From NCBI GenBank assembly GCA_023489485.1, contig JAMDCU010000021.1:1-40103 (forward strand): a stretch of DNA of 40,103 bases, given 5' to 3'. Within the stretch, counting starts at the first letter, position 1, and each line of letters begins with the position of its first letter. Made by a program: the position numbers and the translations under genes. This document shows positions 642-29,036 of this stretch, piece after piece. This DNA is from Chloroflexota bacterium. Its GTDB lineage: Bacteria > Chloroflexota > Anaerolineae > UBA4142. Under the pieces are notes generated by a model that made no database searches, was not told where the DNA came from, and saw only the letters and a program-made list of their open reading frames with translations.

Positions 642-3602
642 ATGCCAAGCGCGGCTATTTATCGCTGTACTAAATGCCAAAGGGAATATCGGCCCCTCGA
701 AGCCGGCGCCCTCCGTTTCCGGTGCTGTGGCACCCCTCTTGTAAGGGTGGACTCGCCGAGTGCCCGCAGGTTCGCAGGCCGCGAAATCCTTCCGGGCGAT
801 GCACCGTTACAGAGACAAGCTTCGTCCTGTAGCCAGGCAATGGAGGTTATTCCACCGCGTGAGAACGCCATGGATGCGCTTGCGGTGGAGACCATGCTGG
901 GGAGCTTTGCGATTGGCTCTCTCTTTTCCCTCGAGATCATGGGGGACGCGACGAGCCGCCGCTTTCTCCTGCGGGGAACTCCTGATGCGCTAGCCCACAT
1001 CTGCCGGCAGATTCAAGCGACTTATGACCAAGTTTCCTTCCGGACGCTCAGCCCTGAAGAAGACCCGGCCCGTCCCAGCCGCTTGCCGAGTTCCACCGCC
1101 CAATTGACTCTGCTCCGTCCGGCCTATCTGCCTCTCCGCACCTATGAGGATGGAGCTTTCGAAGAAGCGGACCCGGTTCGCGGACTCCTCGCGGCGTTCG
1201 ACGGACTAGAAGGAGAAGAGCGTGCGCTTGCCCAGATCTTGCTTTCGCCTGCTCCACCGCGGTGGTCCGTTCGCTTCGAGGGTTCCGCGCGACAGGTCGA
1301 GAAAACCTTTAGCGGCGAGACGGTGACATTTAGTACGGCTTTACGGCAGTTTCTCTCGCTCGTCGCCGTCATGTCGGCCATCGCCTTTGGACTCTGGGCG
1401 CTCTTCTCTTTTGTTCAGCAAAACTGGCTCGCGTTCATTGTGGCGTCCCTTCTAGTCTCAGCAGCCTTTGCTGCCATCCTGTATCTCTACGGACACTTAC
1501 AAGAGCTGACCAATATCGACCCTGAGCTCGTAAGGAAAAAGATCTCTACGCCAGCCTTTGACGTGGCTCTCCGCCTCTTGGTGGTTGGGAAAACCCAAGC
1601 ACGGACAGAAGGAAAGTTGCGTGAGCTGGCCGCTGCTTATCGTCGCGCCAACCTGCAGAGTGGAAATTCTCTCGTGTGTCACCGTTCCCAGTTCGATCCT
1701 CAGGTGCTCTCGCTGGATCGCCCCTCCTGGTGGAGGGAATTCACAGGCCACGTCATGCGCCTGAACGTGAGCGAGCTAGCCTCCTTGTGGCACCTGCCAG
1801 TCGGACGAGGTACTCCTCTCGTCGAACGCAACCTGACGCGGCGCATTTTGCCGCTTCCCAACCAGGTGGGTGAAGGCGTCCTCGTCGGCCATGCGGTGCA
1901 CCAGGGAAGGACAATTCCTGTCCACCTGCCGACCGATGCTCTGCGGCACCATACTTTCATGGTCGCGAAGACACAAAAGGGCAAGTCGACCTTGATGGCG
2001 CATCTCGCCGCTGCGGCGATGGAAATGGAAACGGCGCTCGTTGTGATTGATCCCCACGGTGACCTTGCCCGTTCCGTCTTGCGCCTGGTCCCACGCGAGC
2101 GCGTGGGCGATGTTCTCTATGTCGATTTCAGTGATACCCAACAGTTCGTGGGATTGAATGTGCTCGACATGTCTCAAGGCCGCAACGCGGACGCGATCGT
2201 GTCGAACATCGTCCATGTGGGCGAACTCATCTGGAGCGATTACTGGGGGCCGAGGATGGAGGACGCTCTCCGCATGGGGCTTCGGACGCTCCTCATGATC
2301 AATGAGAAGCTGGTTCAAGACGGCAAGCCCCAGTTTACGCTGATCGATATTCCAACGCTCTTTGAGGTCCATCCCCTGCGGAAGAAACTGCTGGATGACT
2401 ATGTGACGGATGGCGAGATCAAGCAATGGTGGACGGGCTATTTCGACAAACTCTATGCCAGCCTGCGCATGGATGTGGTCAATCCCGTCTTGACCAAGAT
2501 CCATCGCTTTTCGACCCACTCGGTCGTGCGGAATATTATCGGACAGTCAAGTTCCACTGTGAACTTTCGAGAACTGCTCGATCAGCGCCGAATTCTCCTG
2601 GTGAACACAGCGACGGGCGTAATCGGCCCCGATGCCGGCGGGCTCCTGGGGGCGGTGCTTGTGGACCACATTAATTTTGCTGTACGCGAGCAGATGGCGG
2701 TTGCCGATCCGAAAGCGAGGGCACGGGCGGTGGTCGTCGTGGATGAGTTTCAATCCATTCCCGGGGTGGATTACCAAGGCCTTCTGGCGGAGCTGCAAAA
2801 GATGGGTGCGAGTTTCATCCTGGCCACACAGGCTCTCGGTCAGTTGGATGCCATCAGCAAGCCTCTTCGCCCTGCGATCATGTCGAATGTGGACACGCTG
2901 TTCGTGTTTCAGACCAGTGCCGAGGACGCCGATATTTTGCGTCACGAACTAGACGATGAGGTAGTAGGCACGGACATTATCAATTTGGCAGACCATTCTT
3001 GTTATTTGAAGACGCAGCTCGGTCGGGAGCGACTTCCCGTCATGCACATTGAAACGCTTCCGCCTAGTCCTGGCACTCCATTGATCGCTCAGCAAATTCT
3101 CACGCAGATGACACGGTATACGCGGTCGGGTCAGATCGTGGAGGCGGAACGGATCAAGTTCCAAGAGGAGTGGTTCGGGCTGGCAGGACGCCTTCAGGCC
3201 GAGCTCGATTCACTACAGGAGGGCGATGCTTCGGCGAAGCCAAAGGAGAACAAGCCCGCGCAACAATCGCGCAATAAGAACAACTCCGAATCAAAAGAGC
3301 GGAAGAAAAAGAGAAATTCTCCAAATGCGGACGACCAATCGGCTGAGAAAACAGAGGAGGTAGAGCCGTCTGACTCGACTCAGGGGGCTGATGGGGATCA
3401 GGCCGCAGCGATCAATGAGCAGGGGTCTGAACACCCAGAAAAGACAGAGGAACATTCGAAGGATTCCGACGTGGAAGGCGAACCCCCAGATTCAGAAGAG
3501 CATCCTCAGGTGAGGACGACGCTCATTGAACCGTCCGAAAACAATGACGAGAATAAACATGCTGCCGGGTCTGAGGCCGATGAGAAACGAATCAACCCAT
3601 GA
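642..3602 (+). CDS. TraD/VirD4-like conjugative coupling ATPase with N-terminal zinc ribbon
   Basis: A 986-residue P-loop ATPase of the HerA/FtsK/VirD4 class. Residues 9-29 form a small zinc-ribbon-like knot (C9, C12, C28, C29). Two hydrophobic helices lie at about 238-257 and 261-283. A Walker A-like motif (AKTQKGKST) sits near 441-450 and Walker B (AVVVVDEFQSIPG) near 694-706. The last ~120 residues are charged and low in complexity. Coupling proteins use ATP to feed relaxase-bound DNA into a type IV secretion channel at the inner membrane. The membrane segments before the motor and the adjoining replication-relaxation gene support that role. The start ATG at 642 lies 3 nt after the upstream stop, suggesting translational coupling. 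A HerA-like DNA pump is the main alternative. Confidence 0.8.
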   Translation: MPSAAIYRCTKCQREYRPLEAGALRFRCCGTPLVRVDSPSARRFAGREILPGDAPLQRQASSCSQAMEVIPPRENAMDALAVETMLGSFAIGSLFSLEIMGDATSRRFLLRGTPDALAHICRQIQATYDQVSFRTLSPEEDPARPSRLPSSTAQLTLLRPAYLPLRTYEDGAFEEADPVRGLLAAFDGLEGEERALAQILLSPAPPRWSVRFEGSARQVEKTFSGETVTFSTALRQFLSLVAVMSAIAFGLWALFSFVQQNWLAFIVASLLVSAAFAAILYLYGHLQELTNIDPELVRKKISTPAFDVALRLLVVGKTQARTEGKLRELAAAYRRANLQSGNSLVCHRSQFDPQVLSLDRPSWWREFTGHVMRLNVSELASLWHLPVGRGTPLVERNLTRRILPLPNQVGEGVLVGHAVHQGRTIPVHLPTDALRHHTFMVAKTQKGKSTLMAHLAAAAMEMETALVVIDPHGDLARSVLRLVPRERVGDVLYVDFSDTQQFVGLNVLDMSQGRNADAIVSNIVHVGELIWSDYWGPRMEDALRMGLRTLLMINEKLVQDGKPQFTLIDIPTLFEVHPLRKKLLDDYVTDGEIKQWWTGYFDKLYASLRMDVVNPVLTKIHRFSTHSVVRNIIGQSSSTVNFRELLDQRRILLVNTATGVIGPDAGGLLGAVLVDHINFAVREQMAVADPKARARAVVVVDEFQSIPGVDYQGLLAELQKMGASFILATQALGQLDAISKPLRPAIMSNVDTLFVFQTSAEDADILRHELDDEVVGTDIINLADHSCYLKTQLGRERLPVMHIETLPPSPGTPLIAQQILTQMTRYTRSGQIVEAERIKFQEEWFGLAGRLQAELDSLQEGDASAKPKENKPAQQSRNKNNSESKERKKKRNSPNADDQSAEKTEEVEPSDSTQGADGDQAAAINEQGSEHPEKTEEHSKDSDVEGEPPDSEEHPQVRTTLIEPSENNDENKHAAGSEADEKRINP

Positions 3603-5683
3603 GTGAGAGTCAGGGGACGAGCAAGAAGGAAAACGACAGTGAAATAGACGAGGTCGAGTTAGGCAGAGGTGAGCTAACCGATGGCGACGAACGTGTCTTC
3701 CAGGCTCTGCACGATCATCCTTTTCTCTCCCGACGTCAGCTCGAGCTCTATCACGGGCGTGCGTATCGCATGATCCACCTCCATTTGAAAAGCCTGGCCA
3801 ACCGCGGGTGGATTGAGCGACACAATGCGCGGCAGCCGTGGATGCGCACGCGCGCTCTCTTCTCACTCACGGAGAAGGGTGTGGCCCGGGCAGCGGCGAA
3901 TGCCAGGGCAAAGGAGCAGGATTATGGCCGACAGATGGGACTCGATCTACCCCGGCTCGAACAACTCCTCGTCATGATGGAATGCGTCTTTCAGGTGCGC
4001 ACCTTTCTCCTCTGGCTCCAGCAGAAAAAGGCGAACTGGGATTGGGCTATGCCGTACTGGGACGTTGAAGTGGACAAGCTTTTCGACACCGGAGACGAGA
4101 GCTTCAAGGTTCCCTTCCATGGAGCGGGAGTAATGGTGCGTCCCAATGGGCGGTGGAACATGGTCGCAGTGGAACTGGACTTGCGACGCGTCCCCGTGGA
4201 GAAAGACCGAGAGCGCCTAGTACGGTTCGTGCTGGCTCAGACTGACCGCCGTTTCTCAAGACCCGAGAACCGAGAGGAGTTTCCGGTCTGGGTGCTCATC
4301 GCTCAGGAGGAGTTTCGCTTACAGGACTATTACGCGGTATTGAGGGCGACCGCTACGGCAGAGCAGCTGCCCATGCCGCGCGCTTATCTCACGACCTTTG
4401 CACAGATGCGCGCTCTCCGCGACGACCCGGCGCTCCCCATCTGGCACTCCACTGTGTCCGGGCAACGGAAAGCGCTTCTGGCCGACGCCGTGGGGAGTTC
4501 CTCGCCTCTACCGATACAACCGCCCTGGAGCAAGCTGCGGGTCGAGCCACAAAAGGGCAAGCAAGACATCATTACGTGGAAATGGCTGGCGGATCTATCG
4601 CAAGGTGCCGACCAGAAGCTCGATCTCCGGGAAGTGAAACACTGCGCTGGGGCGATTGCACTCGTGCTCAAGCCGCTCGAAAAACGAGTGCTGGAAGAAA
4701 TTGCTGCCCATCCACTCCTCACAACCGATGAGATGGCGCTTCTTCTGCGTCTTGCACCTTGGCGCGTCGCCGAGGCCGCTCAGCGCCTAGTTGAATTGGA
4801 TTTTGCCGCGGAACATGTGCTACCGACAACAGTTCGAGACAACGCACCAGAAGCAAACAAGCCCAGACGAGCATCCGAGAGGAAACGGTATCTGCTCGCA
4901 GAAGGCGGACTGCATTATCTTGCCATGATTGCCGGCTTTCAGAGCAGGGTTGAGAGATATGCGCGAGCGCGCGGCTGGGCCCAGGGTTTTGATTCTCTCC
5001 TCGAACATTGGCAACACACCCATGAAGAGAACGCTTTCTTCCTGGAGATGGCTCGCATTGCAGAAGAAAGGAAACACGAACTGGTCTGGCTTTCAGAATT
5101 GGAGAGCCGTCTGTATTACGACTATGGAAATGACTCTTTGGTGAAAGTCAAGCGTCCCCGACCGCGGGCGGAGGTGGACGACTCGCGTCCCCGCTCAGAC
5201 ACGGAAGCGAAACGCAAGAATTGGCGACGGAGTTTTCTGCCGGATGGACGCGGCACCTACATTGCCAACGGGCAGCGGTACGAGTTTGCGCTAGAGATCG
5301 ACCGCAGCCGGATGCCGATGGCAAAGTTTCAGCGTAAATTGAGCGAATACTTTGCCGCCGTAGCGTCCAATATCCTCCGCGGCCGGGGGATTGAGCTCCT
5401 GCGGCTCTTAATCGTGACCAACAGCTGGGAGCGGGCAGAAACCTTGGAAGAGAGCGCGACGAAGATACAGGAGAAGCTCAAGAGCGCCAAGTTCCTACCT
5501 GTCCTAATCACAACCTTTGATCGGCTCAGGGCAAGCGGTATCGATCACCCCATCTGGCTGCGCGCGGGCCAGACTTCCGAGAAGGGATCTGCTCTGACAG
5601 CAGCAAAGGACTATTCCTTTGATTGCTTTGTCCCCAAGCCCAAGGCACCGCGAGAGCCCGGTCGCGTCACTTACAAGAGTTAG
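3599..5683 (+). CDS. Replication-relaxation family protein, apparent two-copy version
   Basis: A 694-residue protein whose ATG overlaps the stop of the upstream ATPase gene (ATGA). The N-terminal part holds a winged helix (about residues 22-95, FLSRRQLELYHGRAYRMIHL). It is followed by a fold carrying 'VRPNGRW' and 'VAVELD', as in the Replic_Relax family. A second winged helix follows near 355-410 (LLTTDEMALLLRL), and then the same pattern again: 'FLPDGRGTY', 'FALEIDRS' and a K-rich 'KFQRKLSEYF'. This is about twice the length usual for the family, and I read it as an internal duplication. Family members are linked to plasmid replication and mobilisation, often beside coupling ATPases, but their biochemistry is poorly known. 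Confidence 0.7.
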   Translation: MSESQGTSKKENDSEIDEVELGRGELTDGDERVFQALHDHPFLSRRQLELYHGRAYRMIHLHLKSLANRGWIERHNARQPWMRTRALFSLTEKGVARAAANARAKEQDYGRQMGLDLPRLEQLLVMMECVFQVRTFLLWLQQKKANWDWAMPYWDVEVDKLFDTGDESFKVPFHGAGVMVRPNGRWNMVAVELDLRRVPVEKDRERLVRFVLAQTDRRFSRPENREEFPVWVLIAQEEFRLQDYYAVLRATATAEQLPMPRAYLTTFAQMRALRDDPALPIWHSTVSGQRKALLADAVGSSSPLPIQPPWSKLRVEPQKGKQDIITWKWLADLSQGADQKLDLREVKHCAGAIALVLKPLEKRVLEEIAAHPLLTTDEMALLLRLAPWRVAEAAQRLVELDFAAEHVLPTTVRDNAPEANKPRRASERKRYLLAEGGLHYLAMIAGFQSRVERYARARGWAQGFDSLLEHWQHTHEENAFFLEMARIAEERKHELVWLSELESRLYYDYGNDSLVKVKRPRPRAEVDDSRPRSDTEAKRKNWRRSFLPDGRGTYIANGQRYEFALEIDRSRMPMAKFQRKLSEYFAAVASNILRGRGIELLRLLIVTNSWERAETLEESATKIQEKLKSAKFLPVLITTFDRLRASGIDHPIWLRAGQTSEKGSALTAAKDYSFDCFVPKPKAPREPGRVTYKS

Positions 5684-5700
5684 CACAGAAAGGTGAAAGA

Positions 5701-5892
5701 ATGCAGACACTACTGATTTGGACAGGTGCCCTCATCGGCCCCTTCTACGTCATTCTACTATTGAGCATTCTGGTCGCGCGGCGTGTCTTTCCCGATGCCC
5801 AGACTCTCTATGAAGTGATCGAGCCGATTCTGGTCTTCGTTGCCGGCGCCTGTGCGCTGGCGGTCGCCGGTCTCCTGGCACAAGTGGGGTGA
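5701..5892 (+). CDS. Small two-helix membrane protein
   Basis: Encodes 63 residues with two hydrophobic stretches (about 3-26 and 40-61) separated by a short polar loop (RRVFPDAQTLYEVIEP). The frame is open further upstream to an ATG at 5623 inside the previous gene. The ATG at 5701 is preferred because it follows that gene's stop by 17 nt and has a GAAAGGTGAAAG ribosome-binding region just upstream. No family is recognised. Its position between a replication-relaxation gene and a ParB gene suggests a small membrane accessory of the mobile element. That is inference from context only. Confidence 0.6.
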   Translation: MQTLLIWTGALIGPFYVILLLSILVARRVFPDAQTLYEVIEPILVFVAGACALAVAGLLAQVG

Positions 5893-5954
5893 ATGAGTTG
5901 ATCGCAACTGCCAAGAGCGCTGAAGTGAAATCTATTCCATAACGAGGAGCAACA

Positions 5955-6995
5955 GTGGCAGACACGTCATTGGTCGCAACGGCAATCCCAATCCATCAGA
6001 TCCATCCCGATCCCAACCAGCCGCGTCGGTGGCTTCCATCTGATATTTCGGAGGCACTGACCGCCGGAGCTACTCCGGTCGACATTCTTTCGCAACTGCG
6101 TGAGAGAAAGCGAGACAAGTGGGTTCAGGAACGCCTGGTGGAACTGGATGCTCTTGCCGACTCGATTGCGGCTGATGGTCTGATGCAGCCGATCCGTGTA
6201 ATCCTGGACAGCGAGGGCGCCTACCGTATCGAGGCTGGCGAACGCCGCTGGTGGGCGCACCAGATCCTTCTCGGTCGCGGGGACGCCCACTTTGAGACGA
6301 TTGCCGCGTTCATTGTGGATTCGGGAGCAGCCGCACCAGGAATGCTCCGCCGACGCGTTGCCGAGAATGTGCATCGTTCAGGCTTCACCGCGATAGAGCT
6401 TGCTCGGGCCATGGGCGCGAGAATTGAAGAAATCGCTCTGGCCGAGCCGACTTTAGCGAGAAGAGAGATTGAAAAGCGAGTCGGCAAAGAGAATGGGCTG
6501 TCAGATCGGCGAGTACGCCAACACCTCGCTCTCCTTAAATTGCCTGGGGAGGTGCAAGAGCTGGCGCAGCAAGCTCGGATGAGCGAGGGCAGCCTGCGCG
6601 GGTTAGTCAGTATCAAAGACCCGACTCGCCAGATGGCGGCAGCGCAGAAACTTGTTCATCCGACGAAGACGAACCCCGCCAGCAGGAAGGATCGTGCTGG
6701 TAACCGCAAGCCACGTGGGAAGGCTACGCGCCATACATTGCCTAACCCACGGCCATCGGCTACTGTCCCTTGGCCATTGGTGCTGATTAGGCTAGCACGA
6801 AGACTCGAGCAGCGGAATAACAAAGAGATCGGACGAGAGCTGGGAAAGACGGTAAAGAACGAGAAGGAATGCGAGGCACTCGCTCACCTCGGAGAGGCGC
6901 TTAAGGACGTGCAACCATCAGACAAGATACAGAGCGGGGCAGAAGATCCGACCGGTAATGATCTGATTGGTTCAAAGAAGAAAAATCGAGGATGA
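5955..6995 (+). CDS. ParB/RepB/Spo0J-family partition-like protein
   Basis: A 346-residue protein with a GTG start preceded by GAGGAG at 5944-5949. The N-terminal ParB domain is clear: 'IPIHQIHPDPNQPRR', the 'LADSIAADGLMQPIRV' helix, the GERRWWA motif near residue 95 (the CTP-binding GERRxxA box) and ENVHR near 137 (family ENxxR). A helix-turn-helix region follows at about 145-205 (KENGLSDRRVRQHLALL). The C-terminal third is basic and low in complexity. ParB proteins bind centromere-like sites and slide on DNA as CTP-dependent clamps. No ParA is visible in the window. The next gene overlaps by four bases, so the two are probably translated together. Confidence 0.85.
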   Translation: MADTSLVATAIPIHQIHPDPNQPRRWLPSDISEALTAGATPVDILSQLRERKRDKWVQERLVELDALADSIAADGLMQPIRVILDSEGAYRIEAGERRWWAHQILLGRGDAHFETIAAFIVDSGAAAPGMLRRRVAENVHRSGFTAIELARAMGARIEEIALAEPTLARREIEKRVGKENGLSDRRVRQHLALLKLPGEVQELAQQARMSEGSLRGLVSIKDPTRQMAAAQKLVHPTKTNPASRKDRAGNRKPRGKATRHTLPNPRPSATVPWPLVLIRLARRLEQRNNKEIGRELGKTVKNEKECEALAHLGEALKDVQPSDKIQSGAEDPTGNDLIGSKKKNRG

Positions 6996-8008
6996 CAGAG
7001 CGCCTGGTCCTGCCCGCAGGCTTGGAGTTCCCACGCACCCTACTGGATGTGAGCCTCGAGTTCGACGCGCATATCAAAGCCGGCAAGCTGGCGAATTACA
7101 GACCTATCCCTACCGGCTTTGACGATCTCGATGGCTATTTGGGAGGAGGACTTGTTCCTGAGAGTCTGATGTTGGTCGGCGGCCCTCCGGGAACGGGTAA
7201 AACGATCTTTGTCTTGCAGGCGGCTCGCAACATCGCCGCGGCTGCGCGGGACAATCGCACCGCTGCCTGTGTAGTTTGCTTTGAGCATGGCGAGGTCTAT
7301 CTTTACCATCGCCTATTGTGCATGGAAAGCACGATCTCTAGCAACATTGGGCTGACAATGGACGACATTCGCCGTGCCGTCCTCATCAGAGGAATCGGCG
7401 AGCCGGGGCTCGAATCCCTTTTGAACACCCTCTGCGCGGCGAAGGAAGCCTGGGCACGAATTGTGCGTTATTGGGAACGGCTGTTTATCGTGAAAGGTCA
7501 TCCAATCAAAACAACACTCAATGTCTTGGATATTTACCTCACATATCTCTGCAATCAGTTTCCGACCGTTGTTCTCTTCGTCGATTACCTGCAGAAGGTG
7601 CCTGTCTTTTCTCCAGGCATTGAGCTGACTCCAGAGAGACAGATCCGCACAGTGACGGAAGGACTGAAGAATCTCGCACTGGCTCATGGAGTGCCAATAG
7701 CGGCTGTTGCGGCGGCAGATTCTCAAGGTCTGAAAGGGGATCGCGTGCGATTCGAGGATTTGTGGGGTGGGTCCAGCGTCAATTATGAACCGGATGTCGC
7801 ACTCATGCTCAATCCTTGTGAAGAGAGTGGACAGAGGAACTCAACAGAAGTGGTTTTTTCGATTGAAAAGAATCGGCTGGGTCCGACAGGAGTAGACTTC
7901 AGGGTTCCTCTTCTAGGTCAGCATTTTGCATTTCAGTTCGCACGTGGAGACAAACGTCTAGATGCGAATAGCCGGGAATCGAGCTTTCCATGCGTTCCCC
8001 GTCGGTGA
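6992..8008 (+). CDS. DnaB/RecA-like P-loop ATPase (RepA- or helicase-like)
   Basis: Encodes 338 residues starting at an ATG that overlaps the ParB stop (ATGA). The fold follows the DnaB/KaiC pattern: 'FDDLDGYLGGGLVPESLMLV', a canonical Walker A (GGPPGTGKT) near residues 63-71, and a Walker B of the DnaB type (VVLFVDYLQKV) near 192-202. A late segment 'WGGSSVNYEPDVALML' resembles the sensor region of replicative helicases. It lacks the N-terminal DnaG-interaction domain of chromosomal DnaB, so it is probably a plasmid-type hexameric ATPase for replication of the element. Pairing with ParB suggests a maintenance module. A DNA-repair RecA-like ATPase cannot be excluded. Confidence 0.75.
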   Translation: MTERLVLPAGLEFPRTLLDVSLEFDAHIKAGKLANYRPIPTGFDDLDGYLGGGLVPESLMLVGGPPGTGKTIFVLQAARNIAAAARDNRTAACVVCFEHGEVYLYHRLLCMESTISSNIGLTMDDIRRAVLIRGIGEPGLESLLNTLCAAKEAWARIVRYWERLFIVKGHPIKTTLNVLDIYLTYLCNQFPTVVLFVDYLQKVPVFSPGIELTPERQIRTVTEGLKNLALAHGVPIAAVAAADSQGLKGDRVRFEDLWGGSSVNYEPDVALMLNPCEESGQRNSTEVVFSIEKNRLGPTGVDFRVPLLGQHFAFQFARGDKRLDANSRESSFPCVPRR

Positions 8009-8382: not shown

Positions 8383-8802
8383 CCCGCCTTCCCGCCGAAT
8401 TATGACGGACTTTGGCAGCCCTATCTGTCTCTCGCGCGTTCAGAACGGAAAGGGGGTTCTTTGCTTGCTAGGGTCATTATCATGGTTCGATCCATCAGCA
8501 TCGGTCTGGAGTCCGAAGTGACGCTCGAAGCCGATCTGATCACCCAGCAGCAAGTGCTCCAAGTTCATGCGGTCGACAGCACTTACGTGACAGCCCTGGG
8601 AGAGTCGGCGGCCTTCGGACGGGTGCTGTGGGCGGAAGCGGTGCGCCGGCGGTTCCCCGAGGCCGGCGAGCCCATCACTCTCAGCGATGGGGCGGCGTGG
8701 ATCTGGAATCTCCCAGATGAGCATTTCAGTGGCAGTCGCCAAGTGGTGGATTGGTATCATGCCAAACAATGTCTGGCCACTGCCGGGGTGCAATGGGGCT
8801 AG
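8383..8802 (+). pseudogene. ISKra4-type transposase fragment
   Basis: The frame is open from about 8383 to the stop at 8800-8802. It has no start with a good ribosome-binding site; the first ATG-like option is near 8461. The part after residue ~30 matches the catalytic core of ISKra4-family (UPF0236-like) transposases: 'DSTYVTALGESAAFG', 'LWAEAVRRRFPE', 'LSDGAAWIWNLPDEHF' and 'VVDWYHAKQCLA'. The DGAxWIW and DWYHA blocks are diagnostic of this group. Intact proteins of the family are about 400-500 residues, so both ends are missing. No terminal inverted repeats were seen. The fragment ends exactly where the oppositely oriented carbamoyltransferase gene ends. Confidence 0.7.
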
Positions 8803-10448
8803 GCTTCCCTAATTGCTCGAGGTGGCATCACATTTACGCCAGCTATAGGTTTTGGCATCCTCAAGTATGCCTGATAACTCGTCGACGACTTCAAAAGATA
8901 GCTTCGACCTTCAATTACAAAGCCGTCCAAATTATGCTTTACGGCATATGAAGAAAGATCATCTATCCTGTTTATAAATCCTTTTCCCTTGAAGTTTAGC
9001 GAGGTATTGCACAAGACACCGTAACCAGTACGCGCCTTGAATGCGATGAGCAAATTGTACAAGCTTTGGTTGGTTGTAGACGACACGGTCTGAATGCGGG
9101 CAGTCTTATTCACGTGAGTAACAGCCGCCAGCGCGTCCGTTCTTACTCTATATGTATAGAGCATATATGGACTTGCGTGGTTGCAGCCAAACCACCGTGT
9201 AGCATCTTCTTCCAGGCAAACAGGAGCAATCGGACGGAATTGCTCGCGCTGCTTGATCTCATTCAACCGCGTTCTGGTGTTTTCTCGGAATGGTGCCGCA
9301 AGAATTGAACGGTTGCCTAATGCCCGGGGACCGATTTCATATTTGCCGCTCACCCATCCTAGAACAAGGTCATTGGCCAACATGTCGGCTATCAATTCAT
9401 AGTTCGTCTCGTAGAGATCGTATTGCGCCAAATCGAAAGAGCCGGCCGTGATGAAGCCAAGACCAGAGTAAACGTTCCAATCGATCTTCGGATTCCCAGT
9501 AAAATGGAACTGGGCGTCGATAGCCGTTCCGATAGCCGACCCCGAATCATTTGCCACAGGCGGTACGAAGATTTCAGTAAAAAGGCCTGTCTCCTTCCAC
9601 TTGGTGTTCCAGTCGCAATTCAAACCACATCCACCCGCGATGATTAGCGGCATTCTTTTCTTCATGTTCGCTTTCGCGAACTGATAAAAGACATCAAAGA
9701 TCTTGTCGCTAAAAATACCTGCGAAGTTGCGAAATTCTGGATCATTGAGCCCCACATTGTAGTATGGCGAATGCTCAAGGTCTTCGTACAAACTTAGTCG
9801 GACATGTGGCGAGTCCAATAGAAAGGCGATCAGTTTTTTCTCTTCTGCCGAAGGTGTGCTGCGATTCGAGAATGAAGCCAAGGCCATGAGCTTGCCTGCG
9901 TCCGAGAAGCGAGAAAAGGGCGCATTCTTCGGAAAGGTTGGGTCAGCCAAGCCGTAGATCGAGGCGTAGCGATTCCCCGGCTCATTCAGGACGTCGGCAA
10001 GCAGCGTTATGTTCAGCTCAGAATCAATCTCGTAGAAAGCGCCGATCGCACCTTCCCATACCAATGCATAGCATGGAGTACCTTTCGGTAGACTTGACAT
10101 GCCGAAAGCGCAGAGTAAGTGCGATCGCTCATGAGAAGACGAGAAATAGTGGACCGGCCTTCCTAGCAGCCGCCGTTTGTCCACGAGGATGTCGCTCTTC
10201 AGCACACCACGGTACCCGACATGGGCAGGCGACCCCAGTACCTGCGCTTCGTGTGGCCACCAACCGCCTGTACAAAGAACGTCGGGCAATTCCTCAACTT
10301 CGCCAAGAACGTTGAACACGTCATGACTGGAAATAGGCGAGTATCGGTAGTTCGAGTTCTTCTCTGACTCAATAGAAAACAGTAGATGGGTATCCTTCAG
10401 ATAGGCGATCGCACCGTCATGGTCGAGTTTGTAGGAGAGAATGTTCAT
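8799..10448 (-). CDS. NodU/CmcH/TobZ-type carbamoyltransferase
   Basis: A 549-residue protein with both halves of the family. The N-terminal half is Kae1-like, with a metal-type HERSH pair near residues 107-111. The C-terminal half carries 'KYEIGPRALGNRSILA' near 370-385, 'EQFRPIAPVCLE' and 'VLCNTSLNFKGKG'. 'AGGCGLNCDWNTK' in the middle is also typical. These enzymes transfer a carbamoyl group from carbamoyl phosphate, via carbamoyl-AMP, to a hydroxyl on a sugar or small molecule in the cytoplasm. The start ATG overlaps the stop of the upstream GT25 fusion gene (ATGA), so the two are coupled. The last ~20 residues (VNVMPPRAIREA end) run into the transposase-fragment boundary and may not be the native C-terminus. 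Confidence 0.88.
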   Translation of the reverse strand: MNILSYKLDHDGAIAYLKDTHLLFSIESEKNSNYRYSPISSHDVFNVLGEVEELPDVLCTGGWWPHEAQVLGSPAHVGYRGVLKSDILVDKRRLLGRPVHYFSSSHERSHLLCAFGMSSLPKGTPCYALVWEGAIGAFYEIDSELNITLLADVLNEPGNRYASIYGLADPTFPKNAPFSRFSDAGKLMALASFSNRSTPSAEEKKLIAFLLDSPHVRLSLYEDLEHSPYYNVGLNDPEFRNFAGIFSDKIFDVFYQFAKANMKKRMPLIIAGGCGLNCDWNTKWKETGLFTEIFVPPVANDSGSAIGTAIDAQFHFTGNPKIDWNVYSGLGFITAGSFDLAQYDLYETNYELIADMLANDLVLGWVSGKYEIGPRALGNRSILAAPFRENTRTRLNEIKQREQFRPIAPVCLEEDATRWFGCNHASPYMLYTYRVRTDALAAVTHVNKTARIQTVSSTTNQSLYNLLIAFKARTGYGVLCNTSLNFKGKGFINRIDDLSSYAVKHNLDGFVIEGRSYLLKSSTSYQAYLRMPKPIAGVNVMPPRAIREA

Positions 10449-12625
10449 AAAGACAGCGACCTCTGGTGTCGATTCGCTTCCAGCGTAATCGACCTTATAA
10501 AACTGGTCGACGGGAGTCGGCGGCTAGCCAGCCTACCGGCAAGTTCTTTGGAACGAGATGGCCAAACGTTTACATGAAGGGCCATTGGAAGGTGGGGAAT
10601 CGGCGTGGGTTCCCAGTCAGCGCGCACATGAACTAGACGATTGTCAACCAACCAGCGAATCCCGCACGGCTCCCATTCTATCGCGAACCGATGGTCAGAT
10701 TCTGATGCGTCAAAGCCAAGGTCGATATAGCTGGCTGCACCTCTATATCCGTAGTCAAACTTCGCGCCCTGGTCACCAGGATTGTAGAAGACATTGACCA
10801 GGACACGATCTGTTCGATTTCCCGCAATCTCAATATCAATTTCCTGCCGCGGTGAATCGCGATGGAGGAAAAATCCAGTGACCACACCGGGTACGTTCGA
10901 TGCCTTAATGATTGCCTCGAATCTTCCGAATAGGTATCGGTCATGACTAGTTAACGATGCAGCACTATATTCTCGAACACCTAAGGATTCCCTTCTGATA
11001 TTGAGCGCAGCACCAAGCCCAGAACGGAACTCGATATTTGAGGGACGAAACAACGCCAAGTTGTCCGTGAAGGTATCGTTTCGCAGAAGCCAACTTTTTG
11101 TGTCGAGAAATTCCATACAGTCGCTGACCCTAACGGGACTTGTAGCGATCGATGTTCTCCCTTCTATCGGGGCGGAATGAATGCCTTGCCACCACGGACG
11201 CGGCTCAACAACCCAAGGCGACTTATCACGTTTAGGAATCTTGCAGCTCGGCCTTGCGTCCGCTTCAATGGTTCCGCAGAGGAGCTGTCTTTGTCCAAGG
11301 TCAGCCAACTCAGGGAAGGAACAAGCGGGAGGCGCACATCTGAGGTGTTCGCAAACGACCTGCCATTTATTGGATGCCTCTAGATGAAGAACAGCAATAT
11401 CTGCACCAGTAAGATCATCGAGAACTTTCAAATCGCTGTCATCTGCAATTTCAGTCTTCCTAGTGGTGATAATGAACTTGGCCTGAGGGTAACGTTTCCT
11501 GAGAGCCAAGACTTCTCCCGCCAAAGACCCAATGTTCACATATGCGTCAAAAACACGATCACCTCCTCCGGCAAGTAGCATCTCGTGTTCATGATCTGGA
11601 AGCGCTTGAAGATCACTACAGCATCTGTATCCGAGCATGGACAGGGCCATTGCAAGTGATGAAAGACCAGAGCCTCCCGGACCAAATGCAAACACAGGCC
11701 GCTCACTTGGACGAACGTGAAAGAGGGATGCGCTCTCAGAAGTGATAGCGCCAATTTTCGTGAGCGCTGGAAGTATTGAATACGAGTTAGTGGAGCTAAC
11801 ATCGCGTCGCTGGCTGATGATAGACCGTCTTATTGCGAGTACATCCAGAAATTCGAACTGGTGATTTATCCATAGATCTACGGGCCCTCGACAAGGAAGG
11901 AGTCGAAGGAGCTTTTCAGCGCCTTCGCGCGAAATAACGTACCCAGAGAGATGCCAGAGCCCACGTGCTGGGCGGAATACATTCCTTGACAGGAAAGTCT
12001 TCGGGGTACCGTACTTCACCTCTTCGTAGGACAAATAGAGAATGTCGAAATTGCTATTCCTGTTGCCTTCGGGCTTGATTTCGTCCCACGCTTGGTCCAG
12101 TTTTTGGGCAAACCCGGATTGAAACCACACATCGTCCTCAAGAACGAGTACGTATTCGTGATTACTCGCCGCGACCCTTCGCCAGATGTCGATGTGTGAG
12201 CGAGCGACTGCAATCTCAGGTCGACTCATTTGGATCGGAGAAGTGAGCTCCAGCCGGGTGGGGAGAGCTAGCGGTTGGGGCTCTACGAAGAGCTGATCTC
12301 CGAGTGTATAAATTGGATCGATGTCGGCATCCTTTAGCGGTTCGCGCGTGAATTGATTAGCATCGACGGCCGCATGCCGCTCCGTACGATTCCAAAGTTC
12401 AACTCCAGACCAATCCAACACGTGTCTTAGCTCCTGCTCCATCTCGACCCAACGAGCTGGTTGGCGATTCAGGTTGATGACGTAAATGTGGCCTATGCTC
12501 GGCCGCTCCTTGATATTCGAAGGCCCAAATGCTTGAGACCTTTTCTGCGGTAGCAACCTCCGACACTTCACCGTGATGCGAAACAAGAACTTCGAAGGTG
12601 CATTCCAAGTAGAGGCGCGATTCAT
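10445..12625 (-). CDS. Three-domain protein: GT25 glycosyltransferase + sulfotransferase-like + GH16
   Basis: Encodes 726 residues. The ATG at 12625 follows GAGGGAG at a spacing of four bases. The first domain (about 45-240) is a GT25/LPS-type glycosyltransferase with 'HIYVINLNRQPARW' and 'EYVLVLEDDVWF'. The second (about 305-460) resembles the Sulfotransfer_4 group: 'FAFGPGGSGLSSLAMALSML', 'YPQAKFIITTRK' and the closing 'CSFPELADL'. Its PAPS loop lacks the usual R/K-T of the GxxRTGTxS pattern, so catalysis is uncertain. The third (about 515-720) is a GH16 beta-jelly-roll with the catalytic EIDIE (ExDxE) near 593-597 and a final 'WLVDNRLVHV'. No signal peptide is seen. Substrates are unknown. 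It probably works on the same glycan as its two neighbours. Confidence 0.75.
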   Translation of the reverse strand: MNRASTWNAPSKFLFRITVKCRRLLPQKRSQAFGPSNIKERPSIGHIYVINLNRQPARWVEMEQELRHVLDWSGVELWNRTERHAAVDANQFTREPLKDADIDPIYTLGDQLFVEPQPLALPTRLELTSPIQMSRPEIAVARSHIDIWRRVAASNHEYVLVLEDDVWFQSGFAQKLDQAWDEIKPEGNRNSNFDILYLSYEEVKYGTPKTFLSRNVFRPARGLWHLSGYVISREGAEKLLRLLPCRGPVDLWINHQFEFLDVLAIRRSIISQRRDVSSTNSYSILPALTKIGAITSESASLFHVRPSERPVFAFGPGGSGLSSLAMALSMLGYRCCSDLQALPDHEHEMLLAGGGDRVFDAYVNIGSLAGEVLALRKRYPQAKFIITTRKTEIADDSDLKVLDDLTGADIAVLHLEASNKWQVVCEHLRCAPPACSFPELADLGQRQLLCGTIEADARPSCKIPKRDKSPWVVEPRPWWQGIHSAPIEGRTSIATSPVRVSDCMEFLDTKSWLLRNDTFTDNLALFRPSNIEFRSGLGAALNIRRESLGVREYSAASLTSHDRYLFGRFEAIIKASNVPGVVTGFFLHRDSPRQEIDIEIAGNRTDRVLVNVFYNPGDQGAKFDYGYRGAASYIDLGFDASESDHRFAIEWEPCGIRWLVDNRLVHVRADWEPTPIPHLPMALHVNVWPSRSKELAGRLASRRLPSTSFIRSITLEANRHQRSLSL

Positions 12626-12653
12626 TCATCTCCCTCGACGTGTTCCTGGCAAA

Positions 12654-13484
12654 TTATTCTTGATAGGCTCGGCAGTTCGAAAGCCTCCAGTTCCTTGGGT
12701 CGTTCCTATAGCTGAGCTCCCATTTGGTTTTGGCAATATTCTCCCAATCGCACAGCACAAGAAGGGTCTGTTCGATCTCACCGCTCTCAGTTGCAGCGTC
12801 AAATATTGATTTGGTAAGATTCCCGGGGCCAGTCGTCGATTGGATTTCTGGCAAGCCGTTCGTCATATCTTTCTCAAGGGAGAGGGTAGCGTGAGCGAGT
12901 GCACGCTCTATTAAAGGGTGCCCGCAGCCAGCAATTAGCGGATTGTTGTTAAAGTAGAAGATCCAGCTATCGGCGTTTGCTCCTGGCCTAGTAAAAAGCG
13001 ATGGGTGTACCATCATATTCGTCGCCACGTCATAGCATAGAGGCTGGAGTTTTAACCGACCATCACTGAAGAGATGTTGGATTTGAGAGCCGTCGTAGAC
13101 ATCGTCAGCGTCTATGTAGCAGCCACCCTCCACGAGAATATAACAGAGTCGAAAATAGTCCGACTGCATTGCCGGGTGATAGCATTTGTCGTAGGCCAGT
13201 TTGTGCCGTGCACCGAGTTTTCGCCTAATAAAATCTCTTGCTTGGCCTTCGTCGAAAAGTAATCTTTCAAAGCCCTGCTCCTCTGTTTCTTTCCATGTTT
13301 CGATGCACTTGCTCACGTCTCCAGGCAGTCGATCCAGATCGTCCCAGAACTGTACGATCTTCTTTGGGAGCCTACTGGTGAATACGGAGGATGCGACAGC
13401 GGGGTCGCTGGAACGTTGCACTAGCCCCCGAACAAAGCTTGAGCGCGCGCGATGATTTTCTTGTGTGGGATTACCTGCATTCAT
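12654..13484 (-). CDS. GT32-like glycosyltransferase (DXD sugar-binding)
   Basis: A 276-residue protein of the glycosyltransferase 'sugar-binding region containing DXD' type. After a short leader comes 'PKKIVQFWDDLDRLP', a typical family opening. Then come 'MQSDYFRLCYILVEGGCYID' and the DXD-like DADDVYDG near residues 127-134, which would bind the nucleotide-sugar through a metal ion. The 'SDYFR..L...GG.Y.D.D' pattern is a hallmark of the Och1/TcdA-like GT32 fold. It is the first gene of a three-gene leftward set, 28 nt before the GT25 fusion. The 141-nt space upstream may hold its promoter, but I see no clear -35/-10 pair there. The acceptor is unknown. Confidence 0.8.
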   Translation of the reverse strand: MNAGNPTQENHRARSSFVRGLVQRSSDPAVASSVFTSRLPKKIVQFWDDLDRLPGDVSKCIETWKETEEQGFERLLFDEGQARDFIRRKLGARHKLAYDKCYHPAMQSDYFRLCYILVEGGCYIDADDVYDGSQIQHLFSDGRLKLQPLCYDVATNMMVHPSLFTRPGANADSWIFYFNNNPLIAGCGHPLIERALAHATLSLEKDMTNGLPEIQSTTGPGNLTKSIFDAATESGEIEQTLLVLCDWENIAKTKWELSYRNDPRNWRLSNCRAYQE

Positions 13485-13625: not shown

Positions 13626-15467
13626 CTATTCGTCTCCCTCGTCTTCGTCGAGGTCCTCGGGAGGAACCTCGGATGCCGTCGCAATAACTGCTTTACCCAT
13701 TGCCTTTTCGATAATATTAATCAACTCGACCTTGCGCCTGTCATAAAACCCAGAGAAATCATCGGCGCGCAGCAACGATGGATCAATCAGGTGACTAGAG
13801 AGAACTTCATCCTGCTCAACTCGGCTGGCCTGAACCTGTGGATGGGTCCTCAGCTGTTCCAGGTATTGTGAGGGTGCTTTACCGCCTATCATTCTGTTCG
13901 CCTTATAGGAAATCGCAGTCTTGTTGACGATGGAGTTGCCGACTCGATTGGAGATGCCATTTCTTCTGAACCAAGCGGTAGGGAAAATGTGGTGGATATC
14001 GATTGCACAGTCGTCGTAATCCAAGTCCACGATGCGGGCCTTCCAAAAGATATCCTTTGCCCCCTCGCGCTGGAGCAAAACGTACAGTCCCCGATATGCA
14101 GCGCTTGTGCGCGTTCGCAAAGTATCGAGTCGGGAAGGTTGAAAACCAGCGGCTACCACTGTGGCGGGTTCCTGGCCGTCTGGTTGCTGGACCCAAGTTA
14201 GCAAGTCCTGCATATCCAGTCCAATTCGGGTTTCGACAGCTCCACCGTACAATTCACCAAACACACCACACCAAAACCAGCGAGCGATCTTGTCATAGAT
14301 CATCGGCTCTAGCCACCGCTCGCCCAACCACGTCATCACGGATGCCAGCGGCACCAGTTGACTCCGGTACGGAAGGTACTTGGGGTTACGAAATCCTTCC
14401 ATCCTAAGAAAGCGAACAGCTTCCACGAACCCATCGACAAGTTTGTCTGCCCACTCTTGGTAGGCGCTCAACGGCAACGACAGCACTTGCTCGCGCTTGG
14501 CGCTTACGGCTGTCACTTCTTTGCCGGATCTGCCCGCGGCGAGGTCCTGAAGCCGAACCTTGTATGAATTGAGAAGAGATATGCCTTGCAGGAAATCCGT
14601 GGGCTCGATCTCCTTAAGGAGAGGTCTGCTTGCTAGTTTCCTGCTGCGTCCTTCGACATTCCTTTCCGCCGAACCATACCAATCGTCGCGCAAATTGAAC
14701 CCGTCGGCTGCATAGGATGCCGTTACGAGCTCGAACACCGAAAGAGGAACTCCTCCTGTGTTGACCTTCTCAAAAACGAGGCAGACCGCTTCTTTGGTGT
14801 TTTCCTTTTTCAACTCAATGAGCGGAACCAGATACTCGCGAAACTTGTTCAGTATCGAGCTTCTGAATCTCATGTAGAGTGGGAACTTGTTCTGATCGTA
14901 CGCCATCAACCCTTCTTCCCAGACATCCGAGTTCAAAATCTGGTTGCATGGGAAGTAGAACTGGGAGAATTCCATCTCTCGGGTGCTTAGATCAAGCACG
15001 ACTTCGCGCCCAAAGTTTCTTCTAAGGGTCTTGCTGCCATCAACCCCGATAATTGCCTCTTCGAGGTTGCTGTTCCCCAGTAGCGCCTTTTCGATACTAA
15101 AGTAGTAGAAGCGTTCCACTTCGCGCTTTTGGCTGTCTCTGGTCTTGACCGGCTTGTTGAGCCGGAGAACTTGGATCAATGATGTCAACCGCTGTTGGCC
15201 GTCCAGAATGAGCCGCTCCACCTTGGTTGTACCCGCGATTAGCTCTACGCCCTCAACTGGCCGTATCTGAAATCGAGATGCCCCACCGGCCTCAAGCAGC
15301 ATGATGCTGCCGATCGGAAAATCCCGAGCAATGCTCAACAACAAGGACCGGATATGCTCGTCATCCCAGATCCATCCGCGTTGAAAGTCAGGCAGTTGAA
15401 TCTTTCCTTCAACTATCTGATCAAGGATGCTCTTGAGTGGCAATTTCGTGGAATCAAAAAGTGACAT
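13626..15467 (-). CDS. GmrSD-like DUF262 + HNH protein
   Basis: Encodes 613 residues; the ATG follows GGGAG at a spacing of five bases. The N-terminal DUF262 domain is clear, with 'IQLPDFQRGWIWDDEHI' and the nucleotide-handling DGQQR motif near residues 89-93. The C-terminal part has an HNH/DUF1524-like signature, 'AIDIHHIFPTAWF', followed by spaced asparagines (N...N...N). This is the full GmrS-GmrD layout seen in type IV restriction enzymes that cut modified (for example glucosylated) phage DNA, with NTP hydrolysis by the DUF262 part. It is the last gene of the leftward defence array, 143 nt after a PD-(D/E)XK nuclease gene. Its link to the Argonaute genes is positional only. Confidence 0.82.
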   Translation of the reverse strand: MSLFDSTKLPLKSILDQIVEGKIQLPDFQRGWIWDDEHIRSLLLSIARDFPIGSIMLLEAGGASRFQIRPVEGVELIAGTTKVERLILDGQQRLTSLIQVLRLNKPVKTRDSQKREVERFYYFSIEKALLGNSNLEEAIIGVDGSKTLRRNFGREVVLDLSTREMEFSQFYFPCNQILNSDVWEEGLMAYDQNKFPLYMRFRSSILNKFREYLVPLIELKKENTKEAVCLVFEKVNTGGVPLSVFELVTASYAADGFNLRDDWYGSAERNVEGRSRKLASRPLLKEIEPTDFLQGISLLNSYKVRLQDLAAGRSGKEVTAVSAKREQVLSLPLSAYQEWADKLVDGFVEAVRFLRMEGFRNPKYLPYRSQLVPLASVMTWLGERWLEPMIYDKIARWFWCGVFGELYGGAVETRIGLDMQDLLTWVQQPDGQEPATVVAAGFQPSRLDTLRTRTSAAYRGLYVLLQREGAKDIFWKARIVDLDYDDCAIDIHHIFPTAWFRRNGISNRVGNSIVNKTAISYKANRMIGGKAPSQYLEQLRTHPQVQASRVEQDEVLSSHLIDPSLLRADDFSGFYDRRKVELINIIEKAMGKAVIATASEVPPEDLDEDEGDE

Positions 15468-15610: not shown

Positions 15611-16633
15611 TCAGAAGCCGTATCGGCCAGTGACGTATGCGGCCCAACCGCCCCAATGTCCGGATGTGTCTGCCTCTCTCACCCAGCGGACCCACGCTTG
15701 GTGTGTGAAAGTCCGGAACTTTGCCGCTCCTCTAAATAGCGATTCCCAATCGGACTTGATATCGGACAGTCCCGTCGAGCCCGATATGGATTTCATCAAT
15801 TCTTCGTTCCGGGCATCATATGCCACAGCAGAGACAACAAGACTCAGGTTTCCCAGACGAGCAATGCCTTCTGCCAACGCCTGTTGCCGGAAGAGTTGGT
15901 AACCGCCGAACGCGGCTGCACATGCCTTTAAGTTGCCAAAACTGGCCTCGTCAATCACTGGACCCAAATGATGCCAATACTTCCTACCCCAACGCAACAG
16001 ATGACACTGTTCTTCGGGTGCGGCCAGCACAGCGGCTGCATAGAGGCACCGCTCGGGATCGTCGTTGCGGACTGGGTTACGTGTTGAGCTGCTGCGACCT
16101 GCACAAGGGTAGAAACTATGCTCGGTGAATTTGCACTCGACAAGCACGATCCCTTGCCCAGAATCCGTTTCTACCTCAAAGGCTACATCCGGGGAAGTTT
16201 GGCCAGCACCTTGGCTACCATCCATCTCGCCGAGTAAGGCGGGAGGTGTCAATCGGGAGTCCTCGGATTCAAACTCCAACTCGACTGACATGACAGCCTT
16301 GATTTCCCTGTAGACGTTTTCTCGCAAAAAGCCAGCCAATAATGCTCTTCCCGCAGCATCTCGGAACGGAAAGTAGAGGTTCGCGCACAACACCCACGAG
16401 CTCAGCAGATTATGAGTGCCGCTGTGATGCCTTTTGCGATGGCGGTGAAGATACGCGGAAAGGGGAGTGATTGATTGCCCCTCAATTCCTTCCCATAGAT
16501 TCAATTTCCAGTCTTCGTACGGGAGGATATGAGCGTACTTCTTGCCAATTTGCTTTCCCCATTCTTGATTCGTAAGGTGGTGTTTCCTCCAGGCGATCTG
16601 TTGGAGCCTCATTCGCTCATAGAATGCTCGCAT
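15611..16633 (-). CDS. PD-(D/E)XK nuclease, PGN_0703-like putative restriction endonuclease
   Basis: A 340-residue protein with a PD-(D/E)XK nuclease core. PDVAFEVE near residues 146-153 supplies the first acidic site and 'GIVLVECKF' near 158-167 supplies E-x-K. The upstream 'HNLLSSWVLCANLYFPF' block and the downstream tryptophan/cysteine-rich region recall the PGN_0703 family of putative restriction enzymes. That assignment is from memory of the family and is less certain than the nuclease fold. The start ATG at 16633 follows GGTGAGAGG at a suitable distance. It sits 156 nt downstream of the Argonaute-associated nuclease on the same strand and may be a second effector or an independent restriction gene. 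Confidence 0.7.
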   Translation of the reverse strand: MRAFYERMRLQQIAWRKHHLTNQEWGKQIGKKYAHILPYEDWKLNLWEGIEGQSITPLSAYLHRHRKRHHSGTHNLLSSWVLCANLYFPFRDAAGRALLAGFLRENVYREIKAVMSVELEFESEDSRLTPPALLGEMDGSQGAGQTSPDVAFEVETDSGQGIVLVECKFTEHSFYPCAGRSSSTRNPVRNDDPERCLYAAAVLAAPEEQCHLLRWGRKYWHHLGPVIDEASFGNLKACAAAFGGYQLFRQQALAEGIARLGNLSLVVSAVAYDARNEELMKSISGSTGLSDIKSDWESLFRGAAKFRTFTHQAWVRWVREADTSGHWGGWAAYVTGRYGF

Positions 16634-16789
16634 TGATTCCGCCTCTCACCCCCAGTGCTGCGATGATCGTAACCTTGCCACACGTTGAAAAGTCGGGTCT
16701 CGATTGAGTCAATGTATCTGGTCGTCCCAATAAGGCCGAAGAAGCGTCTGGATTGCCAACTTCGCATCGAGAAACCTGGTAACCAAAAG

Positions 16790-18097
16790 CTATTGGCGTG
16801 TAGGTCTTCGCCTGGCCGATGGCCTGCCGGCATTCCGTGCTTTTGGAAGCAGAGTTTTACTCGGTTGGCACATCGAGGGTGCACTCACGATAACGCACTC
16901 TTTCACGAGATTGATTTTCCTTATTGTTCCTTTTGCCCAGGCATGTTGTTCGACGGAGCAGCTCTGATCATAGATGAAGACCACGATTCCTGTGAATGCT
17001 GCCTGGGTACCCAACTGAGCGGAATCTTTGCTAATCTCGTCAACGAACCTTTGGAAATCACTTTTTCCCCGCGCATACTTCGCCTCAACGACCAAGCTCA
17101 GAGGGGGAATCCCAATATCATAACGTTGCCCACTGCGCCCTAACTTGGGTAGATACTCCTCATATCTCAAATCATCAAAGGAGCTTCGAAGAATTAGCCA
17201 AAGGAGCGCTTGGACGTCGTATTCATCCTTTATTGGCCATGAGGACTTCCAGCGCTCCATGGCAGGCTCGAAATTGTCCAGAAGGGAGAGGACGAGATCC
17301 AATCTCGGATATTGGCTTCGCGTGTGAAGATAATTGAAAAGCGCCTCAAGCACAATGGCGGCTTTCTCGTCGCGGGTCGGGAGTAGATCTTCGACTAGGC
17401 ACCTGCGAAGAAATTCTGCTTGTACACTTCCTAACCAGTCTGAAGGGTTACCGACGCCTGAGATCTCAACGCCATGCCTGACCAGCCAGATGGATAGGGC
17501 AAGCTCCGATAGAGTGCAGTCGGAACTATTGATCGCAGGGAGACGCAATACATCATTCGGTGATGAACCCGAGCTCAACGCGTGAAGGCCACTCAAGTAA
17601 CACAGGCGCAGAAAGAATGGCAACTCAAAGTGCTCCATTCCTTCATCGAGCCTTCCGCGGATCCATGTTCCGAGGTCCGGATCGTTAAGAGCACTGATAC
17701 CCAAGGTGATGCCTAGCACAATGTTAGGCTGCGTTGCCCAAGAGTTGGGCGTTGTGAAGATGCTCTGCCTTTCCGCCAGTAGTTCCAGCCCTTTCTTGAA
17801 CGCAATCACAGCACCGATCAACGGCGAAACTCGTTTCTCCATCAAATCGAAAAGCAAAAGGCCCAGCGTCGCCAATTGAGGGGATTGATGGAAATCGGTT
17901 TCATGTTCGTTCAGCCAGTCTATCAAAGGAACATGGACGTTCCAGTCGATTTGTAGCTGACCGCGTTTGGCATTGAGAAAATAGTAGGCTACGAGACCCG
18001 AGAGGTCACCGGGACGGTTCACCTCACGAACTCGATGTGCCATCTCATCGATTACGTCGTGCACCGCCCTCGTAAATGAGTCCTCTACAGAAACCAT
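16790..18097 (-). CDS. Argonaute-associated PD-(D/E)XK nuclease (candidate effector)
   Basis: Encodes 435 residues. The ATG lies inside the 3' end of the Argonaute gene (13-nt overlap), so the two are translationally coupled. The first ~300 residues are helical with no family that I recognise. The C-terminal third has a restriction-like nuclease core: 'RYDIGIPPLSLVVEAKY' near 322-338 gives D and E-x-K, followed by 'DFQRFVDEISKDSAQLG'. Long-B Argonautes with dead PIWI sites are commonly encoded beside a nuclease that degrades DNA once the guide complex finds an invader. The gene order here fits that role. The last ~24 residues are basic and repetitive and may be readthrough beyond the domain. 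The closest family should be checked by structure prediction. Confidence 0.72.
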   Translation of the reverse strand: MVSVEDSFTRAVHDVIDEMAHRVREVNRPGDLSGLVAYYFLNAKRGQLQIDWNVHVPLIDWLNEHETDFHQSPQLATLGLLLFDLMEKRVSPLIGAVIAFKKGLELLAERQSIFTTPNSWATQPNIVLGITLGISALNDPDLGTWIRGRLDEGMEHFELPFFLRLCYLSGLHALSSGSSPNDVLRLPAINSSDCTLSELALSIWLVRHGVEISGVGNPSDWLGSVQAEFLRRCLVEDLLPTRDEKAAIVLEALFNYLHTRSQYPRLDLVLSLLDNFEPAMERWKSSWPIKDEYDVQALLWLILRSSFDDLRYEEYLPKLGRSGQRYDIGIPPLSLVVEAKYARGKSDFQRFVDEISKDSAQLGTQAAFTGIVVFIYDQSCSVEQHAWAKGTIRKINLVKECVIVSAPSMCQPSKTLLPKARNAGRPSARRRPTRQ

Positions 18098-20406: not shown

Positions 20407-20660
20407 CTTTAGCCTCAGCAAAAACGAGTCAGTCATACCGACTTGGATGTGTTCCCACTTTGACTGACGTCGCAGATTTTTCCGTGCAGGGATCTGCCGT
20501 TCAAACATTGTGTCCGGATGTCGGTATCTGTGGCCACCCGATCCAATCTCAGAGGGCCTCGTCTGCACTTGATCCAGAAACCAAAGCGGGTACCCTTGCC
20601 AGCAGTAGGGGGCAGAATCATTGAACATCGCCTAGACTCACACCGTGAGTATCCCTTCTA

Positions 20661-23468: not shown

Positions 23469-23482
23469 GCGGATTGCTCCAA

Positions 23483-28470: not shown

Positions 28471-28496
28471 GCGGACCTTACGGGCGACATCGAACG

Positions 28497-29021: not shown

Positions 29022-29036
29022 TACAGCGCCATCCCC

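Follow-up and report, generated by a model that had tools for sequence, protein, structure and literature searches.

A fusion of two predicted sugar-active domains

Can one bacterial protein build a sugar chain, cut or re-link it and decorate it? This question is raised by a gene on the 40,103 bp contig JAMDCU010000021.1 of a Chloroflexota bacterium (assembly GCA_023489485.1; the whole stretch was analyzed and is referred to as the window), which combines a glycosyltransferase domain of family GT25, a sulfotransferase-like (ST-like) middle domain and a glycoside hydrolase domain of family GH16 in a single chain. We observed the fusion itself, the conservation of a gene pair and of motifs, purifying selection, joint movement of the genes and attC-like sites at some copies. 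From these observations we infer the enzymatic steps, their order, the substrate and the benefit to the host. The comparison covers 24 loci including the window, with relatives of 37–84% identity and an alignment of 23 rows; individual loci are numbered (e.g. L025).

The initial annotation had placed a GT25 domain, a PAPS (3'-phosphoadenosine-5'-phosphosulfate)-type fold and GH16 in this order in one chain, which is borne out by Pfam and by the homologues: the order is kept in every copy that we read. It had also considered that three separate genes might have been misjoined. Independent records, complete plasmids among them, carry the same three-domain chain in full length; the fusion is therefore not an assembly artefact, and misassembly or a chance join can be ruled out. 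Full-text searches gave no paper describing the architecture within the limited literature that could be searched, in line with the earlier claim of novelty. A literature search on DNA modification by carbamoyl or glycosyl groups likewise gave no result. We determined the ratio of nonsynonymous to synonymous substitutions (dN/dS) for each domain: it amounts to 0.12–0.31 for GT25, 0.12–0.26 for the ST-like domain and 0.11–0.26 for GH16, compared with 0.36–0.99 for the linker between the latter two. Purifying selection acts on each of the three domains and is relaxed in the linker.

Table 1. Positions of the fusion gene, its parts and its partner genes in the window
Feature	Position	Strand	Description	Basis
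Three-gene mobile unit	8799..13484	-		DNA similarity to closest copies confined to unit
NodU/CmcH-type O-carbamoyltransferase (CarbT)	8799..10448	-	549 aa; 4-base overlap with fusion stop	
Fusion gene GT25 + ST-like + GH16	10445..12625	-	726 aa, ATG start, no internal stop	Open reading frame (ORF), Pfam, full-length homologues
GH16 jelly-roll, licheninase-like	10478..11110	-	residues 506-716	Pfam PF00722; PDB 3i4i, 1gbg, 3axd by sequence and fold
GH16 catalytic motif EIDIE	10829..10843	-	residues 595-599	All aligned homologues keep the Asp and both Glu
Poorly conserved linker	11111..11305	-	residues 441-505	dN/dS
Shortened ST-like domain	11306..11713	-	residues 305-440	Pfam PF17784 matches 13/13 members; profile hits to PDB sulfotransferases
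Degenerate PAPS loop GPGGSGLSSL	11654..11683	-	residues 315-324	Lys/Arg missing at usual place
GT25 domain	11876..12490	-	residues 46-250	Pfam PF01755 Glyco_transf_25, E 3e-16, 60.3 bits vs cut-off 24
GT25 acidic motif LEDDV	12128..12142	-	residues 162-166	EDD conserved in aligned homologues
N-terminal basic/hydrophobic tail	12497..12625	-	residues 1-43	Sequence, hydropathy; no signal peptide or transmembrane segment apparent
DXD-type glycosyltransferase, Gly_transf_sug	12654..13484	-	276 aa; immediately upstream of fusion	Pfam

The EDD motif of the GT25 domain is present in all 23 rows of the alignment. Membership in GT25 is supported and sugar transfer is predicted. The domain shares PF01755 and the EDD motif with the lipopolysaccharide glycosyltransferases and the procollagen galactosyltransferase COLGALT1, chains of which were also matched by sequence. 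As far as the literature could be searched, we know of no described GT25 member with a C-terminal GH16 domain.

At the other end of the protein, Glyco_hydro_16 matches residues 547–694 (E 1e-27, 96.9 bits against a cut-off of 22). The EIDIE motif named in the initial annotation is indeed intact, and E-I-D-[IVL]-E is found in 23 of 23 rows, down to 37% full-length identity. The conservation of both Glu and the Asp argues for catalysis. A profile search against the PDB gave E 1e-17. The AlphaFold model of the full-length fusion, made from an alignment of 8 sequences, reached a pLDDT of 37; Foldseek matched lichenases with E 1e-8 and a TM-score of ~0.5, starting from a low-confidence model of GH16 alone (pLDDT 47.5). 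Membership in GH16 is supported, and hydrolysis or transglycosylation is predicted. The jelly-roll and an EIDIE motif without the beta-bulge residue are shared with licheninases, ExoK and the transglycosylases XET and Crh; lichenases are the best solved matches, and XET and Crh5 were found as well. In contrast to these secreted or wall enzymes, the GH16 domain of the fusion is predicted to be cytosolic and is joined to a glycosyltransferase.

The middle domain is related to Sulfotransfer_4. In the whole protein the match (residues 311–392) has E 0.001 and falls short of the curated cut-off, which a scan of the isolated domain exceeds (E 5e-7). PF17784 is matched by 13 of 13 homologous middle domains (best 4e-8), and their profile finds solved sulfotransferases with E 2e-4 to 8e-4. 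Several landmarks of sulfotransferases are kept, namely the position of the P-loop, YPxAKFI and the C-terminal signature W..LC.FL...P..FP. In comparison with PAPS sulfotransferases the domain is shortened to ~130 aa, and both the PAPS loop and the 3'-phosphate motif are degenerate. The loop change noted in the initial annotation is real: the basic residue for the 5'-phosphosulfate is absent from its usual place. The R..S motif for the 3'-phosphate is likewise missing, the window reading ITTRKTEIAD, and in three relatives (L015, L016, L035) the loop is gone altogether. Since the domain is short, lacks both elements and has lost the loop in these relatives, sulfation is unlikely. The earlier suggestion that the protein might build, cut and decorate one polymer therefore stands in part: building and cutting or re-linking agree with the retention of the catalytic motifs in GT25 and GH16, whereas decoration by the ST-like domain is unsupported. 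If decoration occurs, the neighboring carbamoyltransferase is the better candidate.

The fusion belongs to a unit of two or three genes

A DXD-type glycosyltransferase gene lies immediately upstream of the fusion on the same strand in 24 of 24 loci, with short or overlapping junctions. The third gene is less constant. CarbT of the window contains both domains required for its family (Carbam_trans_N, E 9e-24; Carbam_trans_C, E 9e-56) and adjoins the pair in 16 of 24 loci, 15 of them identified by ORF clustering and the Citrobacter copy by tblastn. It is placed downstream, upstream or convergent to the pair; in several loci (L006, L012, L022, L024, L025, L039) the gene is truncated, split or interrupted. 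Both Pfam domains are shared with the O-carbamoyltransferases TobZ, GdmN and NodU, and the window protein is NodU-like. Unlike these enzymes, which are encoded in Nod or antibiotic clusters, it is linked to a pair of glycosyltransferase genes and is often lost. No other widely shared neighbor was detected in the 24 loci. A DUF262/GmrSD gene (13626–15467) was ruled out as a fourth member: tblastn finds no homologue at other copies, and at the thresholds used it shows no similarity to the DUF262 genes that lie close to the copies of Citrobacter and Rhizobium.

Hydropathy analysis revealed no stretch resembling a transmembrane segment in the fusion, the DXD glycosyltransferase or CarbT. As all three proteins also lack a signal peptide, they are expected to act in the cytosol or at the inner face of the membrane. 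The N-terminal tail of the fusion is possibly membrane-peripheral.

Copies are found on plasmids and in several phyla

The hosts comprise plasmids as well as chromosomes or metagenome-assembled genomes (MAGs) of several phyla. A tblastn search of plasmids yielded full-length relatives on Citrobacter freundii pCf164_LMB-1 (IncC) and Rhizorhabdus wittichii pSWIT02 (57% identity each), Klebsiella michiganensis pKmfe267-2 (IncF, 47%), four Aliarcobacter plasmids (43%) and Rhizobium leguminosarum pRL9b4 (37%), and a match of 43% over 80% of the length on Sphingobium herbicidovorans pSHV1. The plasmid copies are annotated merely as "family 16 glycosylhydrolase". A scan of genome contigs added nine loci with 69–84% identity in bins assigned to Methylobacter, Scalindua, Anaerolineales, Omnitrophota, Phycisphaerae, Nitrospirales, Gammaproteobacteria, Thermoflexales and Thermoleophilia. 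Among the sampled genomes a copy was present in 3 others of 399 from the phylum of the window, 6 of 343 from one class and 1 other of 398 from the phylum of the Methylobacter bin. The DNA of the Citrobacter copy had no match in E. coli genomes. A peptide-pattern scan gave no phage or IMG/VR match, on which ground a phage origin was rejected, the viral scan reaching only close relatives.

Some copies are decaying: the Thermoleophilia copy (L025) contains a frameshift, and L009, which runs off its contig, an in-frame stop. On R. wittichii pSWIT02 (L012, 17220–19781) an IS4-family element splits CarbT, and the fusion is annotated only from its middle (Swit_4988). Sinorhizobium fredii pSF45436a (L043, 298–10179) is riddled with insertion sequences and holds a short GH16 fragment and a truncated CarbT that is 67% identical to that of the window; this is apparently a dead copy of the cassette.

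The unit moves as a unit and has attC-like sites at some copies

DNA similarity between the window and its closest copies (79–87%) covers the unit only. It begins ~7–75 bp before the glycosyltransferase start and, in copies with a complete CarbT, ends at the stop codon of this gene. Since the similarity ends at the unit ends, the unit moves as a unit. Its G+C content is 0.47–0.57, that of the flanks 0.32–0.64. Furthermore, the protein tree is at odds with the kinship of the hosts: the window clusters with the Methylobacter, Scalindua, Anaerolineales and Phycisphaerae bins and not with copies from its own phylum, and two genomes of one family (f92) fall into opposite clades.

Sites resembling the attC recombination sites of integrons flank the unit in three unrelated settings. 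In L025 one is located 110 bp upstream of the glycosyltransferase gene and another immediately after the CarbT remnant; the 5' TTAGAC of this cassette can pair with the R'' box (GTCTAAC) of the cassette's attC, as would be expected of a genuine integron cassette. L041 has a canonical-looking site of 92 bp upstream, and an Aliarcobacter copy (L014) one of 71 bp downstream. As a discrete unit with such sites at three copies, on both sides in L025, it may be comparable to integron gene cassettes. The relaxed scan recovered the aadA16 attC on the Citrobacter plasmid as a positive control and counted 3 sites in the 18.4 kb directly flanking the unit against 4 in 350 kb elsewhere (shuffled flanks gave a mean of 0.06); the corresponding P of 0.0013 is optimistic, since the criteria were relaxed after a strict version had found no site near the unit. 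Single-strand folds of the sites are like those of the control, with a z-score weaker than -2 in 2 of 4 tested sites. An integron integrase (IntI) scored over the cut-off in 4 of 24 genomes or records, namely the MAGs of L003, L008 and L010 and the Citrobacter plasmid, in no case shown to be a neighbor of the unit. The relaxed scan detected no attC at the window copy or at most other copies; integron carriage would therefore be one route and not the sole one. According to a review (PMC12409362), ~10% of the integron cassettes of Vibrio cholerae serve against phages, and integrons conspicuously lack systems of more than two genes; a three-gene cassette would therefore be unusual. In the Klebsiella plasmid (L013) two related genes for tyrosine recombinases of ~200 aa (12687–13289 and 17346–17948) bracket the GT-fusion pair, possibly a different route of mobilization.

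A putative cytosolic glycan module

Judging from the sequences, we see an even chance of a small mobile glycan module in the cytosol that consists of the DXD glycosyltransferase, the fusion as its central enzyme and the optional carbamoyltransferase. The two glycosyltransferases would assemble a short chain on a carrier. Tethered beside the GT25 site, the GH16 site could then trim this chain or shift it to another acceptor by transglycosylation, as its XET and Crh relatives do, and the carbamoyltransferase would cap a hydroxyl. The ST-like middle may serve as a non-sulfating spacer or as a scaffold that holds the acceptor. Because the hosts are very different, the carrier or acceptor is probably universal, e.g. 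polyprenyl-phosphate or a nucleotide-linked sugar, or made by the module.

Several points weigh against this. GT25 and Gly_transf_sug span several donors, which leaves more than one candidate product for each glycosyltransferase. It is unusual for GH16 to be active inside the cytosol. Many copies lack CarbT or have a broken one, so that it is not essential, and no flippase, polymerase or acceptor gene was found to travel with the unit. Some of the MAG hosts are perhaps mis-binned, which does not hold for the 4.6-Mb Thermoleophilia contig and the plasmids.

Genomic neighborhood and alternative functions

The contig is a dense defence island beside genes of plasmid or integrative and conjugative element type. 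On the minus strand, 15611–20628 hold a three-gene pAgo cluster: a long-pAgo-type gene (847 aa), an adjoining partner resembling an Aga helical restriction endonuclease (REase) or DpnII, and an REase-ARP gene. An Hma-type cluster follows (20661–32459, minus strand), with HmaA, HmaB and HmaC assigned by PADLOC and extra small genes interspersed; a similar HmaB/HmaC pair adjoins the cassette in L034. A UvrD/GajB-like helicase (1007 aa) and a neighboring protein of 1009 aa with weak similarity to Cas4/PD-DExK (33586–39584, minus strand) possibly form an AddAB-like pair, and a relative of the helicase lies near the cassette in L034. Divergent from the island, genes for a TraD/HerA-like ATPase, a Replic_Relax protein, ParB and a DnaB-like helicase (642–8008, plus strand) are probably the core of a plasmid or integrative element.

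The unit might thus itself act against phages or mobile genetic elements, altering an envelope glycan or modifying a molecule of the invader so that infection fails. In addition to the pAgo, Hma and restriction genes of the window, defence genes of the types Hma, Lamassu-like, Septu/PDC-S06, Qat, type I restriction-modification and DrmE-like plus SIR2/HerA are found close to other copies, as are, by annotation, Shedu and a cluster of ThiF/multiubiquitin type; integron cassettes are also known to harbor anti-phage genes (PMC12409362). Of the 16 largest neighboring genes examined, 6 had convincing PADLOC hits, whereas random regions of the same genomes gave 0 of 10 dedicated defence genes and 2 of 10 generic-domain hits, a comparison that is small, partly chosen by eye, suggestive only and not decisive. 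However, the three unit proteins match no PADLOC family, islands gather mobile cargo of any kind, and three copies (L024, L041, L042) lie, by eye, among housekeeping-type genes. We regard a defence function as plausible, though rather unlikely.

It seems quite improbable that the module makes or tailors a specialized small glycoconjugate, a signal or antibiotic-like compound, by analogy to the decoration of Nod factors by NodU and the carbamoylation of antibiotics by TobZ and GdmN. The family of CarbT and its remnants near a GH16 remnant on S. fredii plasmids would fit, but no gene that makes a scaffold travels with the unit, many hosts are not symbionts and CarbT is dispensable. That GH16 is a binding or regulatory domain, leaving a GT25 glycosyltransferase with two accessory domains, is very unlikely: a cytosolic GH16 is odd and the middle domain is an enzyme that has already degenerated, yet both Glu and the Asp are retained in even the most distant rows.

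The glycan module and a protective role could also be combined. An integron-capable glycan system that guards against phages or rival mobile elements, with a cytosolic build-and-re-link fusion, a universal carrier and optional carbamoyl capping in several phyla, is a reading that we hold to be unlikely. Predicted active sites for making and for cutting sugars, joined in one cytosolic chain that is under selection and spread as a cassette across phyla, including clinical Enterobacteria plasmids, point to a useful glycan function that is independent of the host. Databases hide this function under the label of a family 16 glycosylhydrolase, and a construct of two or three genes is ready for tests of glycan remodelling and phage resistance.

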